From: an uncultured Lachnospiraceae bacterium
GTDB taxonomy: Bacteria; Bacillota; Clostridia; Lachnospirales; Lachnospiraceae
Direction: 5' to 3'
DNA: 34,036 nt
Assembly: GCA_944381575.1 (NCBI GenBank)
Contig: CALWLS010000014.1
Coordinates: forward strand, 1-34,036
Part shown: in pieces, positions 18,558 through 27,043 of the stretch
Numbering within the stretch: the first letter of the stretch is position 1
Layout: every line of letters starts with the position of its first letter
Notes under the pieces: model-generated
The model's input: only the letters and a program-made list of their open reading frames with translations
Databases searched by the model: none
Told to the model about the DNA's origin: nothing
Translations under genes and position numbers: made by a program

Positions 18558-19007
18558 TTATGATTTTTTACCCAGATATTCCATAAGGAACTCCACCGCC
18601 ATCTTATATCCCTCAAATCCGAATCCGGCGTAGGTCTTTACGCAGGCCATCCCCGCGTAGGAGACCTGCCTGAAATCCTCCCTCTCGCTTACCTTTGAGA
18701 GATGGACCTCCACTGAAGGTATGGATACCGCCTTAAGGGCGTCGAGGATGGCTACGCTCGTATGGGTGTAGGCCGCAGGATTTATGACTATGCCGTCTAC
18801 CCCCTCAAAATACGCCTGCTGTATCCTGTCCACTATGGCTCCCTCATGGTTGCTCTGGAATATGTCGCATTCCACCTTATTATCCCGGCATATATCCTCG
18901 ATATACGCGATAAGCGCCGTGTAGTTTTCCTTTCCATATATATCCGGCTCCCTTATCCCCAGCATGTTGAGGTTGGGGCCGTTTATGATAAGCAGCTTCA
19001 TTGTCAT
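18558..19007 (-). CDS. aroQ: 3-Dehydroquinate dehydratase, type II
   Basis: This is the third shikimate step: trans-dehydration of 3-dehydroquinate to 3-dehydroshikimate by a dodecameric type II enzyme. The 149-residue chain has INGPNLNMLGIREPDIYG with the catalytic Tyr24 on the mobile lid, EGAIVDRIQ, NPAAYTHTSVAI (Asn76, His82) and VEVHLS with His102. Length and motifs are typical. ATG 19007 has AGAGG four bases upstream; ATG 19001 is equally possible. The gap to aroEK is 12 bases, so the genes are translationally close. Confidence 0.96.
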   Translation of the reverse strand: MTMKLLIINGPNLNMLGIREPDIYGKENYTALIAYIEDICRDNKVECDIFQSNHEGAIVDRIQQAYFEGVDGIVINPAAYTHTSVAILDALKAVSIPSVEVHLSKVSEREDFRQVSYAGMACVKTYAGFGFEGYKMAVEFLMEYLGKKS

Positions 19008-19019
19008 TTTCCTCTTTGA

Positions 19020-20267
19020 TTATGATATCTTTCCGCCGTGAATACTTTTAAGCTCATCAAGTATTCTTTCCGCCGCCGCATTTACCGTGGAATCATTATC
19101 TATGACCACATCGGCAAAGGCCTCATATTTATCCTTCCTGTCGGCGTAGATCTGTTCTGCCGGAGTCTTTAAGGATATTGGCCTGCCCTTTTTGGCAAGC
19201 AGCTTAAGATCCCGCTTTATCCAGAATATGCGCCCGTTCTGGTGAAGCAGCGGATAATTTTCCTGTCTTGTCACGCAGCCTCCGCCGGTGGAGATGATGC
19301 AGCCTGAGAGCCTGCAGAGATCCCTCATGACCTCCGTTTCTATCTTCCTGAAGCCTTCCTCTCCGCTTTCCGCAAATATGGACGGTATATCCTTACCCGC
19401 AGTTTTTTCTATCTCAGCGTCTATCTCTATGAGCCTTCGTCCCGTTATGCGGCCTAAGGTCCGGCCTATGGCGCTTTTTCCAGAACCCGGCATTCCGATC
19501 AGGATTATATTCTGCATATCGTTTTCAAGCTTTTTTGTGATGCTTCCTATCAGAGCGTCGTCAATAGCTGTTCCGGTAAACAGCTCAGCGCTCCTTTTCG
19601 CCTGGGCTGTAAGCATATAGAGGCCGCCGGCACACGGTATCTGAAGCTCCTCCGCCTCCATCATCACTTTGGTCCTTGCCGGGTTGTATATCACATCTAA
19701 AACCCCCTCGCATAGAGGAAAATCGCTTACCTTAAAGGCTGCCTCCCCGTTTTTCGGATACATGCCCACGGGAGTCGTATTTACCAGTATGCGGGCATCA
19801 TTGTGCTTATGGAGATTGCCGTAATTATCCTCTCCGGTCCTGCTTATGACCCTTATCTCAGAGGCTCCCTTATCCTCAAGCACACGGCACACGGTATTTG
19901 AGGCCCCTCCGCTTCCAAACACCAGGGCCTTTTTTCCTCTAACCTCTATGCCGCTTACATTTACAAGCTCAGAAAATCCGTAATAATCCGTATTATAGCC
20001 GTGCCAGCCGTCCTTTTCCTTAACGAGGGTATTTACCGCCCCCATGCGTTTTGCGATGTCGGAAAGACTCACGCAGTAGTCCATCACCGTTTTTTTGTAA
20101 GGGATGGTAACGTTCATGCCGGAAAGGTCCGTTTCATTTAAGAAACGTCCGACATCCTCATTTGGTACCTCATAGAGCTTATATTCGTATCCCTTTAGCA
20201 GGGCGTGTATCTCCGGGGAGTAGCTGTGTCCGAGCTTTTCCCCTAACAGTCCGTATTTCCCCATCAT
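19020..20267 (-). CDS. aroE-aroK: Bifunctional shikimate dehydrogenase / shikimate kinase fusion
   Basis: One 415-residue chain carries shikimate steps four and five. Residues 1 to about 248 are AroE: LGHSYSPEIH, NVTIPYKK (catalytic Lys), GAVNTLV, NTDYYGF and the NADPH loop GSGGASNT (118-125). Residues from about 251 are shikimate kinase: Walker A GMPGSGKS (258-265), IDAEIE, EEGFRKIE with the shikimate-binding Arg, STGGGCV (326-332), and the lid KKGRP. The join lies around KKLENDMQN. The frame is open throughout, so this is a true fusion rather than two close genes. The ribosome site GAGG sits in the third copy of a 12-bp repeat that also contains the pheA stop. Confidence 0.95.
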   Translation of the reverse strand: MMGKYGLLGEKLGHSYSPEIHALLKGYEYKLYEVPNEDVGRFLNETDLSGMNVTIPYKKTVMDYCVSLSDIAKRMGAVNTLVKEKDGWHGYNTDYYGFSELVNVSGIEVRGKKALVFGSGGASNTVCRVLEDKGASEIRVISRTGEDNYGNLHKHNDARILVNTTPVGMYPKNGEAAFKVSDFPLCEGVLDVIYNPARTKVMMEAEELQIPCAGGLYMLTAQAKRSAELFTGTAIDDALIGSITKKLENDMQNIILIGMPGSGKSAIGRTLGRITGRRLIEIDAEIEKTAGKDIPSIFAESGEEGFRKIETEVMRDLCRLSGCIISTGGGCVTRQENYPLLHQNGRIFWIKRDLKLLAKKGRPISLKTPAEQIYADRKDKYEAFADVVIDNDSTVNAAAERILDELKSIHGGKIS

Positions 20268-20299
20268 ATGACCTCTTATATGATCTCTTATATGACCTC
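20264..20299 (-). repeat. Three 12-bp tandem repeats at the pheA-aroE junction
   Basis: On the minus strand GAGGTCATATAA, GAGATCATATAA, GAGGTCATATGA. Copy 1 is the last four codons of pheA including its stop; copy 3 supplies the GAGG ribosome site and the ATG of aroE. Confidence 0.85.
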
Positions 20300-21439
20300 G
20301 TTGTAGCTGCCTAAATACTGGAACTCCTCGCAGCAGTCATTTATATCGCAGATAAGCCTTACGAATTCCTCTGAATATACCGAGGTATCCAGGTCAAAGT
20401 AAAACATAAATTCAAAATCCCTCTCCGGGATAGGCCTGGATTCCAGCTTCTGAAGGTTGATGCCAAGGGCGTAAAACCTTGCCAGTATCCTGTACAGAGA
20501 GCCCGGACGGTGGGAGGCAACTACCATGAGAGAGGTCTTGTCGGCTCCCGGATATATCTCAGGCTTCTTGGAAATGCAGATGAACCGGGTATGATTGTTG
20601 CCGTTATCCGCCATGTTGCTGATGAGGGTCTTAAGGCCGTAAAGCTCGGCGCACCTGTAGGATGATATGGCTGCAAGATCGCGTCTTTCGGAATTTGCGA
20701 CCATCTGGGCTGCCATGGCTGTATTTTCCACTGCCGTAAGCTTGACCTTAGGCATGGTCCTCCCAAGAAACTCGGCGCACTGGCTTAATGCCTGCTCGTG
20801 GGAAACAATTTCCCTGATATCCTCGACCTTTACTCCAGGCTTTGCCACAAGACAGTGGTTTACCTTGATCCTGGTGCTGCGCACTATATAAAAATGATGC
20901 TTGAGCATCAGGTCATAGACCTTTTTTACTGACCCGGCGGTGGAGTTTTCTATAGGCAGGATGCCGTATTCGCAGAATCCCTTTTCTACCGCGTTAAATA
21001 CAGCGTCAAAGGTCTCGAAATACTGGATGTTCGGAGCCGCAAACAGCTTTTCACAGGCAATGTTTGAGTAGGCCCCCTCCACGCCCTGACAGGCCACGTT
21101 CGCAGCCTTCGGGAACATCTTCGGCGTTTCCTCTATGGCCTTCTGTATCTCGGCAAAACGCTCCTTGTTATTATCATTTACCACGTTCTGGTAGGCACGG
21201 CTGAGCTCAAACAACAGAGTATACAGGACATGATAATAAGGCTTGATATCATCCCTTGCCCAGCTAAGTATCTCCGTTAATTTCTCCCTCTCACGCCTTG
21301 AATCAAGGGTAGGGAGGCCATGCTCCTTTTTGTAGGCCGCTATGTCTGCCGAAACGTCCATTCTGTCCTGAACGTCCTTTACTATGCGGCGGTCTATCTC
21401 GTCTATCTCTTTTCTGAGCTCTTCAATGCTTTTTGCCAT
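20288..21439 (-). CDS. pheA: Bifunctional chorismate mutase / prephenate dehydratase (P-protein)
   Basis: It converts chorismate to prephenate and then to phenylpyruvate, the phenylalanine branch. The 383-residue chain has an AroQ-type chorismate mutase helix bundle (1 to about 90, IEELRKEIDEIDRRIVKDVQDR), a prephenate dehydratase domain (about 112-290: GVEGAYSN, GILPIENSTAGSV, and NNHTRFICIS with the catalytic TRF motif) and a C-terminal ACT domain with HRPGSLYRIL and LESRPI, the Phe-binding motifs for feedback inhibition. It begins 16 bases after aroC, with GAGG nine bases before the ATG (GAGGTGTCGA-ATG). Confidence 0.96.
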   Translation of the reverse strand: MAKSIEELRKEIDEIDRRIVKDVQDRMDVSADIAAYKKEHGLPTLDSRREREKLTEILSWARDDIKPYYHVLYTLLFELSRAYQNVVNDNNKERFAEIQKAIEETPKMFPKAANVACQGVEGAYSNIACEKLFAAPNIQYFETFDAVFNAVEKGFCEYGILPIENSTAGSVKKVYDLMLKHHFYIVRSTRIKVNHCLVAKPGVKVEDIREIVSHEQALSQCAEFLGRTMPKVKLTAVENTAMAAQMVANSERRDLAAISSYRCAELYGLKTLISNMADNGNNHTRFICISKKPEIYPGADKTSLMVVASHRPGSLYRILARFYALGINLQKLESRPIPERDFEFMFYFDLDTSVYSEEFVRLICDINDCCEEFQYLGSYNEVI

Positions 21440-21455
21440 TCGACACCTCTATAGA

Positions 21456-22481
21456 TCATTTATTATCTGCCATGACTCCGTTTACATCCATAAGGATCTC
21501 ATCGTATACTGCTATGGCGGCCGCAGCCTCCACACACGGCACTGCCCTTAAGACTATGCACGGGTCGTGGCGGCCCTTTACACTCAGCTTTACATTTTCA
21601 TGGGTATGTATATTTACGCTGTCCTGCTCCTTAGCTATGGAAGGCGTAGGCTTAAAGGCTGCCCTGAATACGACGGGCATGGAGGATGTTATGCCTCCGA
21701 GTATGCCGCCGTGGTTGTTGGTCCTGGTCACCACCCTGCCGTCCTTATATTCAAAGGGATCGTTATTCTCGCTTCCGGTGAGAGCGGCGCAGCCGAATCC
21801 ATTCCCGAACTCTATGCCCTTTACTGCCGGGATGCCGAATACCGCCTGGGCTATGCGATTTTCCATACCGTCGAACATGGGCTCGCCTATGCCTGCAGGA
21901 AGGCCCTCTATGACACACTCAACTATGCCTCCGACGGAGTCCCCTTTTTCCCTTGCTTCATCTATCCGTTTAAGGAAAAGACTCTCATCCGTGATCCCGC
22001 CTATCATTACGGGCTTTGCGCTTATCCTTATTCCCTTATCCTCAAGTATCTGCAGCGCTATGCCCCCGGCTATGCATAAGGGTGCCGTAAGCCTTCCGGA
22101 AAACTGTCCTCCTCCCGCATGATCTCTGGCGTCGCCGTATTTTACCATTGCGGCGTAATCAGAATGTCCGGGACGAGGCACTGATTTCAGCTCATCATAA
22201 TCCGATGATCTTGTATTGCTGTTCCTTATCATGGCCGTAAGGGCAGAGCCGCAGGTAAGTCCCTCAGCATTAAGCCCTGCGACAAATTCCGGGCGGTCCT
22301 CCTCCTTTCTCGGAGTCGAATACCTGTCCTGACCGGGACGCCGCCTGTCCAAAAAGGCCTGCAGCTTATCCATATCTATGCATATGCCTGCAGGCAGCCC
22401 GTCAATGGTCACCCCTATGGCCGGCGCGTGAGACTGGCCCCAGATGGTGACCTTAAATATATTTCCTATAGAATTTGCCAT
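21456..22481 (-). CDS. aroC: Chorismate synthase
   Basis: It catalyses the last shikimate step: 1,4-elimination of phosphate from EPSP to chorismate, which needs reduced FMN though no net redox change occurs. The 341-residue chain shows all signatures: WGQSHAPAIG, DRRRPGQDRYSTPRKEEDRPEF (44-65), PRPGHSDY, GGGQFSGRLTA, and the C-terminal GRHDPCIVLRAVPCVEAAAAI. The N-terminal His of GQSHAPAIG and the RPGHSDY His are the conserved acid pair. It is slightly shorter than the usual 355-390. The start has only AGGG before TTTAATTT-ATG, a weak site. No flavin reductase domain is fused, so reduced FMN must come from elsewhere. Confidence 0.96.
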   Translation of the reverse strand: MANSIGNIFKVTIWGQSHAPAIGVTIDGLPAGICIDMDKLQAFLDRRRPGQDRYSTPRKEEDRPEFVAGLNAEGLTCGSALTAMIRNSNTRSSDYDELKSVPRPGHSDYAAMVKYGDARDHAGGGQFSGRLTAPLCIAGGIALQILEDKGIRISAKPVMIGGITDESLFLKRIDEAREKGDSVGGIVECVIEGLPAGIGEPMFDGMENRIAQAVFGIPAVKGIEFGNGFGCAALTGSENNDPFEYKDGRVVTRTNNHGGILGGITSSMPVVFRAAFKPTPSIAKEQDSVNIHTHENVKLSVKGRHDPCIVLRAVPCVEAAAAIAVYDEILMDVNGVMADNK

Positions 22482-22570: not shown

Positions 22571-23791
22571 TCAGCATATGGATATATCTCCGCCAAGCAT
22601 TTCAAAATCCCTCCAGAATCCCGGGTAGGATTTTTCCACTGCCTCGGCTCCGCTTATTATAACATCATTTTCACAGGCTATGGAAGCCACTGCGGCGCTC
22701 ATTGCCATCCTGTGGTCTCCAAAGCTTGAAACGCTTCCGCCCTCAAGCCTGTTTTTTCCTTTTATTATAATGCCGTCCTCAGTTTCAGAAGCCTCAGCCC
22801 CAAGCGACACGAGCATATCCACAGTTGCCTTTATGCGGTCGCTTTCCTTGATCCTGAGCCTGCCTGCATTTATAAACCTTGTAGTCCCCGGAGAAACGGA
22901 GGCAAGTACCGACAGCACCGGCACAAGGTCCGGAACATTTTTGGCGTCTATCACCGCATCTCCCTCTGAGATCCTGTCTATCAGCCCTATGACAGCCTTA
23001 TCTCCCTGTCTTGAGGCTGTGTCAAGGCCTGTTACCTTTATATTGCCCCCTGTCATCCGCGAAGCACAGAGCCAGAAGGCTCCGTTGGACCAGTCGCCCT
23101 CCACCACGGCACTGCCCGGAGACCTTAAGGCTGAGCCGGCGTCCATGGACAAAACGTCGCCCTCTTTATGTATATCCACTCCAAAGATCTTAAGGGCGTC
23201 CATGGTCATTAGTATGTAATCCTCAGACTCGACCCTGCCGGTAAGCCTTACGGATGAGGCGCTTTTCATAAGCGGCATGGCGAACAGCAGCCCGCTTATG
23301 AACTGGGAGGATATGCCGGCGTCGATCTCATAGCTTCCTGAAGTTATCCTTCCCGAGGTCATGACCGAACCGTCCTCTCCGCGTTTTAAACTGGCCCCGT
23401 GGCTTATGAGCTCCTCCCAGAGAGGCGAAAGAGGCCTCTCCGGCAGCCTCCCGTGCATATTTATCTTACATTTCACGCCGAGAGCGCATACCACCGGCAG
23501 CATAAACCTTAATGTAGAGCCGCTCTCTCCGCAGTCCATGACCGCCGTATCCTTGATCCTATCGGCAGGCCTGACCTTGAACAGTCCCTTTTCCTGATCC
23601 CGTTCGATACTGCAGCCAAGGGCCCTTAAGCACTCTGCGGTGGCATCTATATCCTTAGAGGTCTCCGAGCATATTATCTCAGTAGGCCTGTCCGCAAAGG
23701 CTGCGCATATAAGGAGCCTGTGAGCCTGGGATTTGGAGGCTATGGCCTTTACACTGCCCTTAAGCCCGGCATTTTTTATAATAACATTCAT
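22571..23791 (-). CDS. aroA: 5-Enolpyruvylshikimate-3-phosphate synthase
   Basis: It transfers enolpyruvyl from PEP to shikimate-3-phosphate, the sixth shikimate step. The 406-residue two-domain chain has GSVKAIASKSQAHR (substrate Lys/Ser), DCGESGSTLRFMLPV (86-100), GRLPERPLSPL (114-124), SSQFISGLLFAMPL and KESDRI near 325, then GDHRMAMSAAV. It is a little shorter than the usual 425-430. GESGSTLRF differs from the GNAGTxxR motif of class I (E. coli-type) enzymes, so it belongs to the more divergent Firmicute group. The start is weak (GGATAAATGAT-ATG), just after a run of 14-bp repeats, so translation may depend on coupling to aroB. Confidence 0.95.
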   Translation of the reverse strand: MNVIIKNAGLKGSVKAIASKSQAHRLLICAAFADRPTEIICSETSKDIDATAECLRALGCSIERDQEKGLFKVRPADRIKDTAVMDCGESGSTLRFMLPVVCALGVKCKINMHGRLPERPLSPLWEELISHGASLKRGEDGSVMTSGRITSGSYEIDAGISSQFISGLLFAMPLMKSASSVRLTGRVESEDYILMTMDALKIFGVDIHKEGDVLSMDAGSALRSPGSAVVEGDWSNGAFWLCASRMTGGNIKVTGLDTASRQGDKAVIGLIDRISEGDAVIDAKNVPDLVPVLSVLASVSPGTTRFINAGRLRIKESDRIKATVDMLVSLGAEASETEDGIIIKGKNRLEGGSVSSFGDHRMAMSAAVASIACENDVIISGAEAVEKSYPGFWRDFEMLGGDISIC

Positions 23792-23795
23792 ATCA

Positions 23796-23874
23796 TTTAT
23801 CCATTCCGGTTCTTATAAATCGGTTCTTATAAGCCGATTTTTATAAATCAGCTCTTACAAATCAGCTCTTACAG
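23796..23874 (-). repeat. 14-bp tandem repeats at the aroB-aroA junction
   Basis: On the minus strand about five to six diverged units of CYGATTTRTAAGAR. The first, partial unit contains the aroB stop (CTGTAAGAG); the run ends next to the aroA start. Unit starts are near 23865, 23851, 23837, 23823 and 23809. Confidence 0.75.
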
Positions 23875-24933
23875 GCCGGCCCTTATAAAATCTTCAAGCT
23901 CAGCTATATCCATCTTTTTGATGATGCATCTGCCTATTTTTTCAGGAAGCACGATGGAAATGCTGCTGCCGTTCCTCTTTTTATCCCTGAGCATCACCTC
24001 ATAGAGCTCCTCCGCGCTGTAATCCGTATCGCAGGGAAGCCCGAACCTCTTTACGGCCTCCCTTATCCTTTCCGCCGTGAGCCTGTCGCATATGCCGTAA
24101 GAGGCTGCTGCCGCTGAAAATACCGACATGCCGATGGCAACGGCCTTTCCATGAGAGAGTTTATAGGAGCTCAGCTGCTCCGCCGCATGGGCAAGGGTAT
24201 GGCCGAGATTTAAGAGCCTGCGCTTTCCCGTATCAAATTCGTCTTCATTTACCACGTCTCTTTTTATCTCTATGCATCTTGAGACCACATATTCCCTGTT
24301 GAACTCAAGGCCCTTATCCATGAGATGCTCAAAAAGCCTCGGATCCGCCAGTACTCCGTACTTTATGACCTCCGCCGAGCCGTCTTTAAATGTTTCCTCA
24401 GGCAGACTGTCAAGGACGTCAAGATCGCAGATCACGAGCCGCGGCTGATGGAAGGCTCCGGCAAGATTTTTTCCGGCCCTTAAGTCCACAGCCGTCTTTC
24501 CTCCGACGGAGGAATCCACGCATGCAAGAAGCGTCGTCGGTATCTGTATGAAATCCACGCCCCGTAACATCACTGCCGCCGCAAATCCCGCAAGATCCCC
24601 GACCACGCCGCCGCCAAGGGCAGCTATCAGATCGCTTCTGGTAAATTCATTTTCAGCTAAAAATTCTAATACGGATATGAGATTATCGGTGTTTTTGCTT
24701 TCCTCTCCGTTTGGAAGCACCAGTTTAAGCGTTTCAAAGCCGGCTGATCTCAAGCTTTCCGTTACTTTTTCCCCGTACAGCTCCCAGACCTTATCGTCAG
24801 AGATCACCGCCGCCTTTACAGCGTCCTTCCTGGCCGCGTTTTTTTCTCTTATGAGTTTCCCGCAGTCTTCTATAAGCCCGTTTCCAATAAGGACGTCATA
24901 GGGACGCCCCGTGTCCACATGTATGGTCTTCAA
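23869..24933 (-). CDS. aroB: 3-Dehydroquinate synthase
   Basis: It cyclises DAHP to 3-dehydroquinate, the second shikimate step, using NAD+ and a divalent metal. The 354-residue chain has GGGVVGDLAGFAAAV (107-121), QIPTTLLACVDSSVGGKTAVD (135-155), the metal-site Glu in GSAEVIKYG, RRLLNLGHTLAHA with the metal His, and a second metal His in YKLSHGKAVAIGM. The start codon is TTG, not ATG: GGAGGATAAATAA precedes TTG at 24933, and the next residues KTIHVDTG match the family N-terminus. A TTG start and the 16-base gap after tyrA suggest tuned translation. Confidence 0.95.
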   Translation of the reverse strand: MKTIHVDTGRPYDVLIGNGLIEDCGKLIREKNAARKDAVKAAVISDDKVWELYGEKVTESLRSAGFETLKLVLPNGEESKNTDNLISVLEFLAENEFTRSDLIAALGGGVVGDLAGFAAAVMLRGVDFIQIPTTLLACVDSSVGGKTAVDLRAGKNLAGAFHQPRLVICDLDVLDSLPEETFKDGSAEVIKYGVLADPRLFEHLMDKGLEFNREYVVSRCIEIKRDVVNEDEFDTGKRRLLNLGHTLAHAAEQLSSYKLSHGKAVAIGMSVFSAAAASYGICDRLTAERIREAVKRFGLPCDTDYSAEELYEVMLRDKKRNGSSISIVLPEKIGRCIIKKMDIAELEDFIRAGL

Positions 24934-24949
24934 TTATTTATCCTCCGCT

Positions 24950-25780
24950 TCAGCCGTCCAAAGCTATCTTCTTTTTGCTTCCCTCATCCAGGATGCGCAC
25001 GAGCCTTTCTTCGTCGTCATTTATTATAGCATCCTTATATTCGTTAAGGAAACCGACCATCCAGTCTATCTCCTTTATGACGTTTTCCCGATTGTCCATA
25101 AAGAGCTCTGCCCACATCCTCGGATTGAGCCTCGCTACCCTCGTAAGGTCCTTATAGCTGCCTGCCGAAAATCCCTTATGGCTCCCTGCAGTAGGGCTCT
25201 TGATATAGGCGTTTGAAACTATGTGCGCCATCTGGGAGGTAAATGCTATCATCCTGTCATGCTCCTCAGCGGTGGTTACGGAGAGCCTGCCGAAGCCCGC
25301 CGGCTCCAGAAGCTTTTTGATGTTGTCAAGAAACTCTATGTCATCGTATACCGGCGGCACCAGCACCATCGGAGCTCCCTTAAACATTGTCGCCTTTGAA
25401 TGCTTAAAGCCCGCATACTGCGTTCCGGCCATTGGGTGCCCTCCCACATAGGTAAATCCGTACTTTTCCGCAAGCTCAAAGCCTATTTTACAGATATTTT
25501 CCTTTACGCCGAGGCAGTCTATCACCACCGTGTGCTTATCGATGACCGGAGCCTTCGCCTTAAACCACTCCTCCGCCGCATGTATATAGGTTGTTATAAG
25601 CAGAAGGTCGCAGTCCTTAATATTCTCATCATTAAGCTCCGCGTCCACGGCTCCCTCAAGGATGGTAAATCCGAGGATGGTCTTATCCGTATCCGCCCCC
25701 AGTATCCTGTGGCCGGCCTCCTTGTACGCCTTTGCGAAGGAACCGCCTATAAGTCCCAGTCCGACTATTCCAACATTCAT
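24950..25780 (-). CDS. tyrA: Prephenate dehydrogenase
   Basis: It oxidatively decarboxylates prephenate to 4-hydroxyphenylpyruvate, the tyrosine branch. The 276-residue chain starts with the NAD-binding motif GIVGLGLIGGSFA (4-16), followed by DCLGVKE, GGHPMAGTQYAG with the catalytic His, and the helical domain with FTSQMAHIVSNAY and FKDLTR-like SYKDLTRVARLNP. There is no fused chorismate mutase or ACT domain, so feedback control must lie elsewhere. Its ATG overlaps the stop of the DAHP synthase gene (ATGA, 25777-25780), a sign of translational coupling. Confidence 0.95.
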   Translation of the reverse strand: MNVGIVGLGLIGGSFAKAYKEAGHRILGADTDKTILGFTILEGAVDAELNDENIKDCDLLLITTYIHAAEEWFKAKAPVIDKHTVVIDCLGVKENICKIGFELAEKYGFTYVGGHPMAGTQYAGFKHSKATMFKGAPMVLVPPVYDDIEFLDNIKKLLEPAGFGRLSVTTAEEHDRMIAFTSQMAHIVSNAYIKSPTAGSHKGFSAGSYKDLTRVARLNPRMWAELFMDNRENVIKEIDWMVGFLNEYKDAIINDDEERLVRILDEGSKKKIALDG

Positions 25781-26778
25781 CCTATCACCTCACGGATCTT
25801 CCTTACCTTATCAGACATTTTCTCAAACTGCTCCGGAGTTATGGAGGATGCTCCGTCGCTTAAGGCATTTATAGGATCGTTATGCACCTCCGTCATTATG
25901 CCGTCTGCTCCGCAGGCCGCAGCCGCCATGGCCATAGGCTCCACATATCTTGAGTATCCCGTGCTCCTGCTGACGTCCACTATGACCGGCAGATGGGAAA
26001 GCTCGTGCAGCACCGGCACAGCCGAAAGATCAAGGGTGTTTTTCGTATATGTCTCAAAGGTCCTTATGCCCCTCTCGCAGAGTATGACCTTTTCATTGCC
26101 TCCCGCCATCACATGCTCGGCGCTCATAAGAAGCTCCTTTAAGGTATTGGCAAGGCCCCTCTTTATCAGCACCGGCTTGCGGGTCTTTCCAAGCTCCAAA
26201 AGCAGTTCCGTATTCTGCATGTTTCTTGCCCCGACCTGTATGATGTCCACATCCTCAAACAGAGCTATATCGTTTATGCTCATTATCTCGGATATGATAG
26301 GAAGCCCGGTCTGTCTTTTTGCCTCCGCCAGCATTTCTATGCCCTCTCCCTTAAGGCCCTGGAAGTCATAAGGCGAGCTGCTGAGCCTGAAGGCGCTGCC
26401 CCTGAGTATGGAAGCCCCGGCGGCCTTTACCTTCTTGGCAATATCCACTATCTGATCCTGAGACTCTATCGAGCTTGGCCCGGCTATGAGCGTCAGGCTT
26501 CCGTCGCCGATGCTTACTCCGCCAACATTTATAACAGTATTTTCAGGATGGAACTTCCTGTTGGCCTTTTTAAACGGCTCTGAAATTATCTTGACGCCGC
26601 TCACTATGCTTAGGCTCTGCAAAAGCTCCACGTCTATCCTGCTGGTATTCCCGACAAGGCCTAAAACCGTATAATCCTTTCCCTCGGAGATATGTACGTC
26701 CACATTCTGGCCCTTGAGCCAGTCTATAAGATGGTTTCTCTGTTCAATGGTGGTGTTGGGTTTTAAAACTGCGATCAT
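25777..26778 (-). CDS. aroF: 3-Deoxy-7-phosphoheptulonate (DAHP) synthase, type I-beta
   Basis: It condenses PEP and erythrose-4-phosphate into DAHP, committing carbon to the aromatic pathway. The 333-residue chain has an N-terminal ferredoxin-like regulatory domain (1 to about 70) that in this subtype binds Phe or Tyr for feedback inhibition, then the TIM barrel: KANRKFHPENTVI, LRGSAFRLSSSPYDFQGL, VGARNMQN, LIKRG, VDVSRSTG and GIMTEVHNDPINALSDG with His and Asp metal ligands. The motif usually GPCSVES is GPSSIES here, so the metal-binding Cys is Ser102. That is a striking change; the rest of the site is intact. The start has AGGAGAGGAAAG. It is the first gene of the operon. Confidence 0.94.
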   Translation of the reverse strand: MIAVLKPNTTIEQRNHLIDWLKGQNVDVHISEGKDYTVLGLVGNTSRIDVELLQSLSIVSGVKIISEPFKKANRKFHPENTVINVGGVSIGDGSLTLIAGPSSIESQDQIVDIAKKVKAAGASILRGSAFRLSSSPYDFQGLKGEGIEMLAEAKRQTGLPIISEIMSINDIALFEDVDIIQVGARNMQNTELLLELGKTRKPVLIKRGLANTLKELLMSAEHVMAGGNEKVILCERGIRTFETYTKNTLDLSAVPVLHELSHLPVIVDVSRSTGYSRYVEPMAMAAAACGADGIMTEVHNDPINALSDGASSITPEQFEKMSDKVRKIREVIG

Positions 26779-26814: not shown

Positions 26815-26847
26815 AATAATAAAAGCTGCACATGACTTTGTGCAGCT
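26815..26847 (-). terminator. Attenuator terminator in the aro operon leader
   Basis: On the minus strand AGCTGCACA, 6-nt loop, TGTGCAGCT, then TTTATTATTTT. It stands upstream of the DAHP synthase gene and downstream of the operon promoter, so it can only control entry into the operon. Confidence 0.9.
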
Positions 26848-26896
26848 GATACATCTACTTATAATATAAACGCCTGATATTTACGGTCCGCACAAA
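26837..26896 (-). promoter_or_regulatory. Antiterminator pairing in the aro leader
   Basis: TTTGTGCGG (26896-26888) can pair over nine positions, one G.U, with CTGCACAAA (26845-26837), which is the left arm of the terminator. The two structures are mutually exclusive. Upstream, CTATTAC (26929-26923, in the Tyr codons) pairs with GTAATAG (26906-26900), and TACGGT (26949-26944) with ACCGTA (26887-26882), which would sequester the antiterminator strand. Confidence 0.75.
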
Positions 26897-26907
26897 AATC
26901 TATTACC

Positions 26908-26976
26908 TCAGCCCTCGCAAAAGTAATAGTAGTAAAACGCAAAACCGTATGCAGATCTTATTTCAGATAAGTTCAT
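26908..26976 (-). CDS. Tyr/Phe-rich leader peptide of the aro operon, 22 aa
   Basis: A 22-codon frame lies in the leader between the promoter (27015-27043) and the attenuator terminator. It starts with ATG at 26976, with GGAG six bases upstream, and stops with TGA at 26908. Residues 9-19 read AYGFAFYYYYF: five Tyr and three Phe codons within ten codons, including four Tyr in a row. A ribosome short of charged tRNA-Tyr or tRNA-Phe would stall there, covering CTATTAC and freeing the antiterminator strand. This is the logic of classical pheA/trp attenuation, here placed in front of the common aromatic pathway. The peptide has no other expected role. Evidence is from codons and pairing seen by eye. 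Confidence 0.88.
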   Translation of the reverse strand: MNLSEIRSAYGFAFYYYYFCEG

Positions 26977-27014
26977 ACACGACTCCATCTTTAGTGGTTT
27001 AAAGCGTTGCCTTG

Positions 27015-27043
27015 ATGATAAACATTTTGACATATTTTGTCAA
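27015..27043 (-). promoter_or_regulatory. Promoter of the aro operon, with overlapping palindrome
   Basis: On the minus strand a perfect TTGACA, 17 bases, TATCAT; transcription would start near 27008 and give a leader of about 230 nt. The -35 is the left half of TTGACAAAATATGTCAA (27043-27027), a perfect 6-bp inverted repeat that could be an operator. Confidence 0.8.

Follow-up and report, generated by a model that had tools for sequence, protein, structure and literature searches.

A predicted Tyr/Phe-codon leader attenuator upstream of the aroF-to-aroQ cluster in a Lachnospiraceae genome, and its recurrence before aroF in related bacteria

The stretch of DNA analyzed here, called the window, spans 34,036 nucleotides of an uncultured Lachnospiraceae bacterium (assembly GCA_944381575.1, contig CALWLS010000014.1, positions 1 to 34,036). 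On its minus strand it carries eight co-directional genes, which together cover all seven steps of the shikimate pathway as well as the Tyr and Phe branches:

25777..26778, minus strand: aroF, DAHP synthase (TIGR01361 match)
24950..25780, minus strand: tyrA, prephenate dehydrogenase (best NCBIfam match, under the curated cut-off)
23869..24933, minus strand: aroB, 3-dehydroquinate synthase
22571..23791, minus strand: aroA, EPSP synthase
21456..22481, minus strand: aroC, chorismate synthase
20288..21439, minus strand: pheA, chorismate mutase-prephenate dehydratase (best matches below or just below the curated cut-offs)
19020..20267, minus strand: aroE-aroK fusion, shikimate dehydrogenase plus shikimate kinase (matches under the curated cut-offs where looked at)
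18558..19007, minus strand: aroQ, type II 3-dehydroquinate dehydratase

The aroE-aroK fusion is a single frame of 415 residues, of which approximately 5-246 match aroE models and approximately 251-405 match shikimate kinase models. AroF is the sole TIGR01361 match in the genome (97.4% complete), in a search that covers DAHP synthases of the AroF type only; by this protein, the closest named record among the matches listed is the Lachnospiraceae MAG SUG126 (86% identity). Between aroF and a putative promoter, the minus strand contains the elements of a candidate attenuator, given here in the direction of transcription:

27015..27043, minus strand: sigma-70-type promoter TTGACA-17-TATCAT, 11 of 12 consensus letters, predicted from the consensus match only
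26983..26986, minus strand: Shine-Dalgarno sequence GGAG, six bases 5' of the leader ATG at 26976
26908..26976, minus strand: predicted leader peptide frame MNLSEIRSAYGFAFYYYYFCEG plus stop, 22 codons, stop at 26910-26908
26920..26949, minus strand: control codons Tyr10 to Phe19, with 5 Tyr and 3 Phe in 10 codons by translation
26938..26948, minus strand: strand 1, ACGGUUU.GCG within the codons Tyr10-Gly11-Phe12-Ala13, partner of strand 2 in the minimum-energy fold
26900..26929, minus strand: hairpin over the Tyr codon run (CTATTAC...GTAATAG), by fold, a possible pause hairpin
26883..26896, minus strand: strand 2, the putative antiterminator strand; 26892-26883 pairs to strand 1, 26896-26888 (UUUGUGCGG) to the terminator left arm
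26837..26845, minus strand: strand 3, CUGCACAAA, the left arm of the terminator with some of its loop, pairs with strand 2
26815..26847, minus strand: predicted intrinsic terminator with a T-rich tail, hairpin of -13.9 kcal/mol

The arms of the terminator, AGCTGCACA and TGTGCAGCT (26847-26824), form 9 pairs and are followed by the tail TTTATTATT, and aroF is preceded by a ribosome site of its own, 3' of the terminator (stretch 27043-26778). A rival pairing, likewise of nine pairs, joins UUUGUGCGG (26896-26888) to CUGCACAAA (26845-26837). The pairing of strand 1 with strand 2 (26948-26938 with 26892-26883) is present in the minimum-energy fold of the leader and displaced by one base in the centroid; the minimum-energy fold itself reaches -50.3 kcal/mol (z -2.46), which is equalled by 5 of 200 shuffles. 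The region of the Tyr-run hairpin can be aligned to three relatives (L003, L005 and L007). A preliminary description, made from the letters of the window, had placed the promoter, the ribosome site, the 22-codon frame and the terminator at the positions listed above, and had proposed that the terminator left arm can pair over nine bases with an upstream strand, which itself pairs with the Tyr-codon region. All of these elements were recovered, the last of them in the minimum-energy fold (26892-26883 with 26948-26938), and the downstream gene set (aroF, tyrA, aroB, aroA, aroC, pheA, aroE-aroK and aroQ) also agrees with that account.

The hallmarks of an attenuator are thus present in the window, in predicted form: an aromatic-rich short frame with a ribosome site, an intrinsic terminator that separates leader and first gene, an antiterminator that excludes the terminator and shows covariation (duplex z of -2.69 in the window, together with the relatives), and, by fold, a control-codon strand that sequesters the antiterminator strand, with a switch that is weak in an equilibrium model. 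When the 330-base upstream region was dinucleotide-shuffled, a run of ten residues with 8 aromatic ones never arose (0/3000), and one with 7 arose twice (2/3000). The duplex of strand 2 with the left half of the terminator was matched by 4 of 200 shuffles. The 9 pairs of the terminator are the maximum among the 12 terminator-like sites listed between 16200 and 27300, a value with which one other site ties; as a class, terminator-like sites are not enriched in this interval (12 vs. a shuffle mean of 9.4).

Taken together, the leader is very probably a ribosome-mediated transcription attenuator of the aroF-to-aroQ cluster. In the proposed mechanism, RNA polymerase would start near 27008, as judged from the promoter, and a ribosome would enter the 22-codon leader. 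A shortage of charged Tyr- or Phe-tRNA would make the ribosome stall on codons 10-19 and cover strand 1, which would leave strand 2 free to pair with strand 3 and permit read-through into the eight aro, tyr and phe genes. When both tRNAs are charged, the ribosome would complete the leader and depart, so that strand 1 could pair with strand 2, the terminator could form, and transcription would stop at approximately 26815. What supports this reading at the level of sequence is the anatomy of the leader, together with the recurrence of aromatic codons, terminator and covarying antiterminator across species; translation, stalling, termination, a single transcript and a response to both amino acids are what we infer from it.

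The recurrence of the frame was assessed upstream of the nearest homologue matches of aroF, including the best 80 of 545, with a rule that asks for 10-50 codons, with Tyr or Phe at six or more of ten residues. Frames that pass this rule occur upstream of aroF in 77 distinct regions out of 106 (78/108 before removal of copies), and the other 29 of the 106 have none; since these loci are nearest matches, this share applies to the near kin of the window's aroF and not to all aroF genes. The counts exclude L001/L002, which are the window, and L079, which has 71 bases upstream; the last 60 bases are common to both members of the pairs L004/L097, L077/L079 and L094/L116. The same rule was passed by 1.3% of 3240 shuffles, by 4/108 reverse strands and by 4/99 regions farther upstream, and ten other residue pairs put through it reached at most 22/108 regions. 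Beyond these regions, one family of the order (f17, L117-L135) has the same leader type at the threshold in 18 of its 19 rows; no leader was found in L136 and L138-L141, and of the 40 rows L142-L181 many lack a leader or have one of another type. Some rows that count as leaderless by the rule hold weaker frames (L006 and L134) or long SWG-type frames (L025 and L026).

The leaders are 17-58 residues long, the upper value being that of L129, where the script chose another frame; in the terminator, pairing and masking analyses, L129 is therefore represented by a frame other than its true leader. Beyond Tyr and Phe, the peptides are only slightly conserved: between clades, richness in these residues is common and, as judged by eye, residue order is not. 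Such leaders could in principle encode a functional small protein, with the terminator ending an unrelated upstream transcript in the ordinary way, and the ribosome site and promoter of the frame would suit such a protein. We regard this as hardly credible, given the short length and slight conservation of the peptides, the lack of a protein family match and the covariation of the terminator left arm and loop with the leader RNA. In a search of known small-protein families, the window peptide and four others remained unmatched in NCBIfam and Pfam even at E 5. A nascent-chain arrest peptide, which would sense free Tyr or Phe instead of tRNA charging by codon, is compatible with the anatomy, and one subclade does have near-identical peptides (e.g., TAYFYFYRVFxDSK or TTYFYFYRVFxDSK). 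However, the variable residue order between clades, as well as the four-strand logic, which fits the genus mates of the window, make an arrest peptide quite improbable, and favor attenuation by codon.

The predicted terminator and antiterminator recur along with the frame. A terminator-like hairpin is found in 108/116 leader rows, vs. 151/580 shuffles and 24/59 leaderless rows, and a hairpin of -15 kcal/mol or lower with a T-rich tail in 92/116 leader rows, vs. 9/580 shuffles and 13/59 leaderless rows; the 116 leader rows take in the window, the copy L032 and a false leader, L099. For pairing between strand 2 and the left half of the terminator, 107 rows were available after leaving out 8 rows without a terminator and L032, a copy of L003 that was likewise excluded from the partner-swap and masking analyses. 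The mean duplex z of these rows is -1.94, with 51/107 under -2, whereas a control stretch before the ATG gives a mean of -0.09 and 3/107, respectively. Restricted to short Tyr/Phe leaders (90 rows), the duplex z averages -2.26. When partners were swapped among 75 rows with distinct terminator left halves, strand 2 favored its own terminator by a mean of 3.7 kcal/mol; with row and column effects removed, this preference was matched by 0/10,000 permutations, a figure that is not to be taken as a probability because the permutation ignores shared descent.

Within the genus of the window, all 12 rows retain 11 or 12 of the 12 antiterminator pairs. These pairs were counted on strands located by script and in the best register chosen by the script, since a MAFFT alignment of the genus leaders shifted strand 2 by 1-2 columns. 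Strand 2 reads, for example, GTGTTTTGCTGC or TAGTTTTGCTGC, and the terminator arm plus loop GCAGGAAAACAC or GCAGTAAAACTG. Two-sided changes occur at four outer positions of the antiterminator, and amount in part to the insertion of one pair on both strands; in some rows the 12-base strand 3 extends into the right arm of the terminator. The terminator loop, which is free to vary as far as termination is concerned, tracks strand 2 in the genus rows. Strand 2 of the genus also appears complementary (GCAGCAGCA with TGCTGC) to the Ala codons that lie directly 5' of the first Tyr codon and would be masked by a stalled ribosome. In L003, the nearest relative, the antiterminator is bulged (z -0.28), and the rule used finds no ribosome site. 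An alignment of orthologous leaders, searched for conserved Tyr/Phe codons and compensatory stem changes, had been proposed in the preliminary description: the codons are found in 77/106 regions, and the candidate compensatory changes are the two-sided ones at the four genus positions. The same account had named the loss of the Tyr/Phe frame or of the alternative stems in orthologous leaders as grounds against its reading; instead, these leaders retain the frame (77/106), the terminator-like hairpin (108/116) and a covarying antiterminator.

The effect of ribosome position was explored in an equilibrium model, in which nucleotides under the ribosome are kept unpaired and the transcript ends at the terminator loop (90 rows). 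In this model, strand 3 is paired to strand 2 at a mean fraction of 0.30 when the ribosome is absent, 0.21 when it sits at the stop codon and 0.52 when it stalls on Tyr/Phe codons. Relative to no ribosome, 48/90 rows gain and 9/90 rows lose more than 0.1. The window itself shows 0.64 with no ribosome, 0.65 at the stop, and a mean of 0.78 and a maximum of 0.82 on Tyr/Phe codons, so that its switch operates only weakly in the equilibrium model. A mask on the first four codons gives a mean of 0.53, about equal to that of the Tyr/Phe stalls, and within the core the masking gains are 0.249 for other codons, 0.265 for Tyr (335 codons) and 0.191 for Phe (293 codons); what this model distinguishes is the position of the ribosome and not the identity of the codon. 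In the fold with masked codons, which the preliminary description had put forward as a check, pairing rises in the mean of the 90 rows, and the shift in the window is small. Thus, the model supports the geometry of the attenuator and codon content supports its specificity, and neither of them provides proof.

With respect to specificity, separate sensing of Tyr and Phe would follow from the codons. A leader that in practice senses one amino acid only, with the other codons retained for RNA pairing or by drift, is possible, though we consider it doubtful. In its favor, passages in the literature on the AroR leader of Corynebacterium glutamicum report a response to Phe and none to Tyr (PMC11802643), and some of the Tyr/Phe codons lie within pairing strands (TTTTACT runs). 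Yet both residues are present in 90/90 short-leader rows, with a minimum of 2 Tyr and 1 Phe and means of 4.0 and 4.2, respectively, and the masking gains for the two kinds of codon are similar (0.265 and 0.191), which argues for a leader that reads both.

Alternatively, the short frame could be incidental to a T-box or to a leader RNA of another kind that binds a ligand or a tRNA. T-boxes do occur in this lineage: the genome of the window has three matches to the T-box model (RF00230), located before leuA (112 bits), before a gene for a trpX-like transporter (87 bits, E 1.2e-19) and before trpE (68.7 bits, E 6.4e-15), at an Rfam cut-off of 93 (L112, L113 and L114). The trpX-like protein matches TrpX with 195 bits vs. 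a cut-off of 390. Moreover, aroF is preceded by a T-box match in two of the leaderless relatives (L022:1160-1389, 124.7 bits; L116:297-555, 74 bits, with L094 sharing the last 60 bases of L116), so that the two sensors seem to be interchangeable at aroF. At the aroF leader of the window, however, the T-box model gave no match, and with Rfam release 15, leader families included, the leader was unmatched up to E 5. The 15 genus loci with a leader have no Rfam match at E 0.01, and among 80 loci at the Rfam gathering score there is one T-box, that of L022, at a threshold that would miss weak ones such as that of L116. Together with the recurrence of the Tyr/Phe frame in 77/106 regions, this makes a ligand- or tRNA-binding RNA a very unlikely explanation and leaves translation of the leader as the preferred one. 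That the attenuator is unlisted by the Rfam models used here is explained by what recurs, namely codon content and pairings, and not the sequence.

The same frame type occurs before aroF in Oscillospiraceae and other Clostridia, as well as in three Treponema and three Pyramidobacter records; a further record with the frame, L106, is labelled Bacteroidaceae and may be mis-binned. Two cultured relatives, Aminicella lysinilytica DSM 28287 (L054) and Eubacterium pyruvativorans i6 (L104), also carry a leader of this kind. In a tree of aroF (136 rows, midpoint root), the leader label is clustered, with 19 changes vs. 34.8 when shuffled. The Treponema (L047, L048 and L052) and Pyramidobacter rows (L038, L064 and L071) are nested among Clostridia rows, which suggests joint transfer of operon and leader. 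The order aroF-tyrA is found in 95/100 leader rows vs. 29/36 leaderless rows, the former counting L032 (a copy) and L099 (a false leader) among them. In L062, L069, L074 and L099, pheA comes before aroF, and an aromatic leader with a terminator stands before pheA, 1.1-1.4 kb upstream of aroF; these leaders are of the FQGF or FWGY type, that of L074 also with Trp.

In other families of the order, longer Phe/Tyr/Trp frames, such as FYFFSWGFYFFSAGYF, precede aroF. Leaders of this type were seen upstream of aroF in L165:1-1001, L168:1-1051, L170:1-1061, L143, L146, L023, L025, L026 and others. No Rfam match was obtained for them in the loci scanned, and two of the peptides, tested against NCBIfam and Pfam, were unmatched. 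The two leader classes, A and B, were drawn after the peptides had been seen. The ten-nucleotide string AGCTGGGGCT is shared without change by 12 of the 14 SWG-type rows printed, and L147 and L166 are one base off. Without the codon run, the duplex test of SWG-type leaders gives a mean z of -0.21 (17 rows). When whole SWG leaders are used, the Ser-Trp-Gly string is the site of the best duplex in 12/15 rows; as shuffled arms lead one to expect 9.74/15, its pairing with the left arm of the terminator is at chance level and was dropped as a candidate. Perhaps another leader type is present in L163 and L164, where, 236 bases upstream of aroF, similar frames with two Trp codons (MIKFN..TTKLY.NFVWRFWQESVRFYCPKSTYILTS) are found in two genomes. 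Tentatively, leader-peptide control of DAHP synthase operons could be old and general in Clostridia, occurring in a Tyr/Phe form and in a Phe/Tyr/Trp form, the latter reading all three aromatic tRNAs through one frame, a generalization that we put forward as possible and would not yet bet on.

If the proposed mechanism holds, a translated leader would gate the one DAHP synthase of AroF type that was detected in this genome, along with the aromatic pathway, while trpE is preceded by a T-box match. A conflict would then be predicted, in which ample Tyr and Phe limit the supply of precursor to Trp. This conflict could be resolved by Phe/Tyr/Trp leaders such as those of the other families.

Attenuation by aromatic leader codons has well-known precedents. 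The pheL-pheA attenuator of E. coli uses the same four-strand logic with aromatic codons in its leader, but it differs from the window in reading Phe only and in having pheA as its target. For DAHP synthase, the aroR leader of C. glutamicum aroF was reportedly described by Neshat and colleagues in 2014. According to passages in two sources, AroR is a leader with Phe-Tyr-Phe before aroF that responds to Phe and shows no response to Tyr (PMC11802643, PMC4046766). As described there, aroR resembles the window in placing an aromatic leader peptide before a DAHP synthase operon, with stalling at aromatic codons letting transcription proceed; the combination of a leader with Phe and Tyr codons, a DAHP synthase gene and a terminator is likewise found in the window, a likeness of function only. 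Unlike the window, the aroR system belongs to Actinobacteria, has three aromatic residues vs. 8 in 10 codons, and is described as responding to Phe but not Tyr. In E. coli, the passage in PMC11802643 contrasts pheA, which has a leader attenuator, with aroF, which is instead under TyrR. For Acholeplasma, attenuation by a Phe leader has also been proposed, at the uORFC-13-1 motif upstream of aroF (PMC8632094). As far as the quoted text goes, the motif shares with the window a short frame and a terminator before aroF; however, it has at least one Phe codon and reads Phe only, and is given for Acholeplasma and environmental sequences only (PMC8632094).

In Firmicutes, excerpts describe leader-peptide attenuators such as the His-rich leaders of hisS/hisZ in bacilli, reported as new outside Proteobacteria and Actinobacteria (PMC2965389), and the Leu-rich peptide of the S. 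aureus ilv attenuator (PMC5794164), but these concern other amino acids and genes. Predicted attenuators before tyrA operons, one of them in Thermoanaerobacter, appear in Table 7 of PMC1173090, whose main text does not contain the word "leader"; Panina et al. (2003), on low-GC Gram-positives, is cited for tyrosine T-boxes in a passage of PMC1262725; and the passages of PMC2494555 mention neither aroF nor leader peptides. The literature searched (titles, starts of abstracts and passages, with most subscription papers outside) yielded no Tyr/Phe leader in Clostridia. The suggestion of the preliminary description that such a leader may be undescribed thus stands for Clostridia within that literature, and gives way where the principle is concerned, since leader control of a DAHP synthase gene is known in Corynebacterium and proposed in Acholeplasma. 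Other bacteria already offer examples of this mechanism, and even of this gene target; what is new here is the breadth of the leader across species and its load of aromatic codons.
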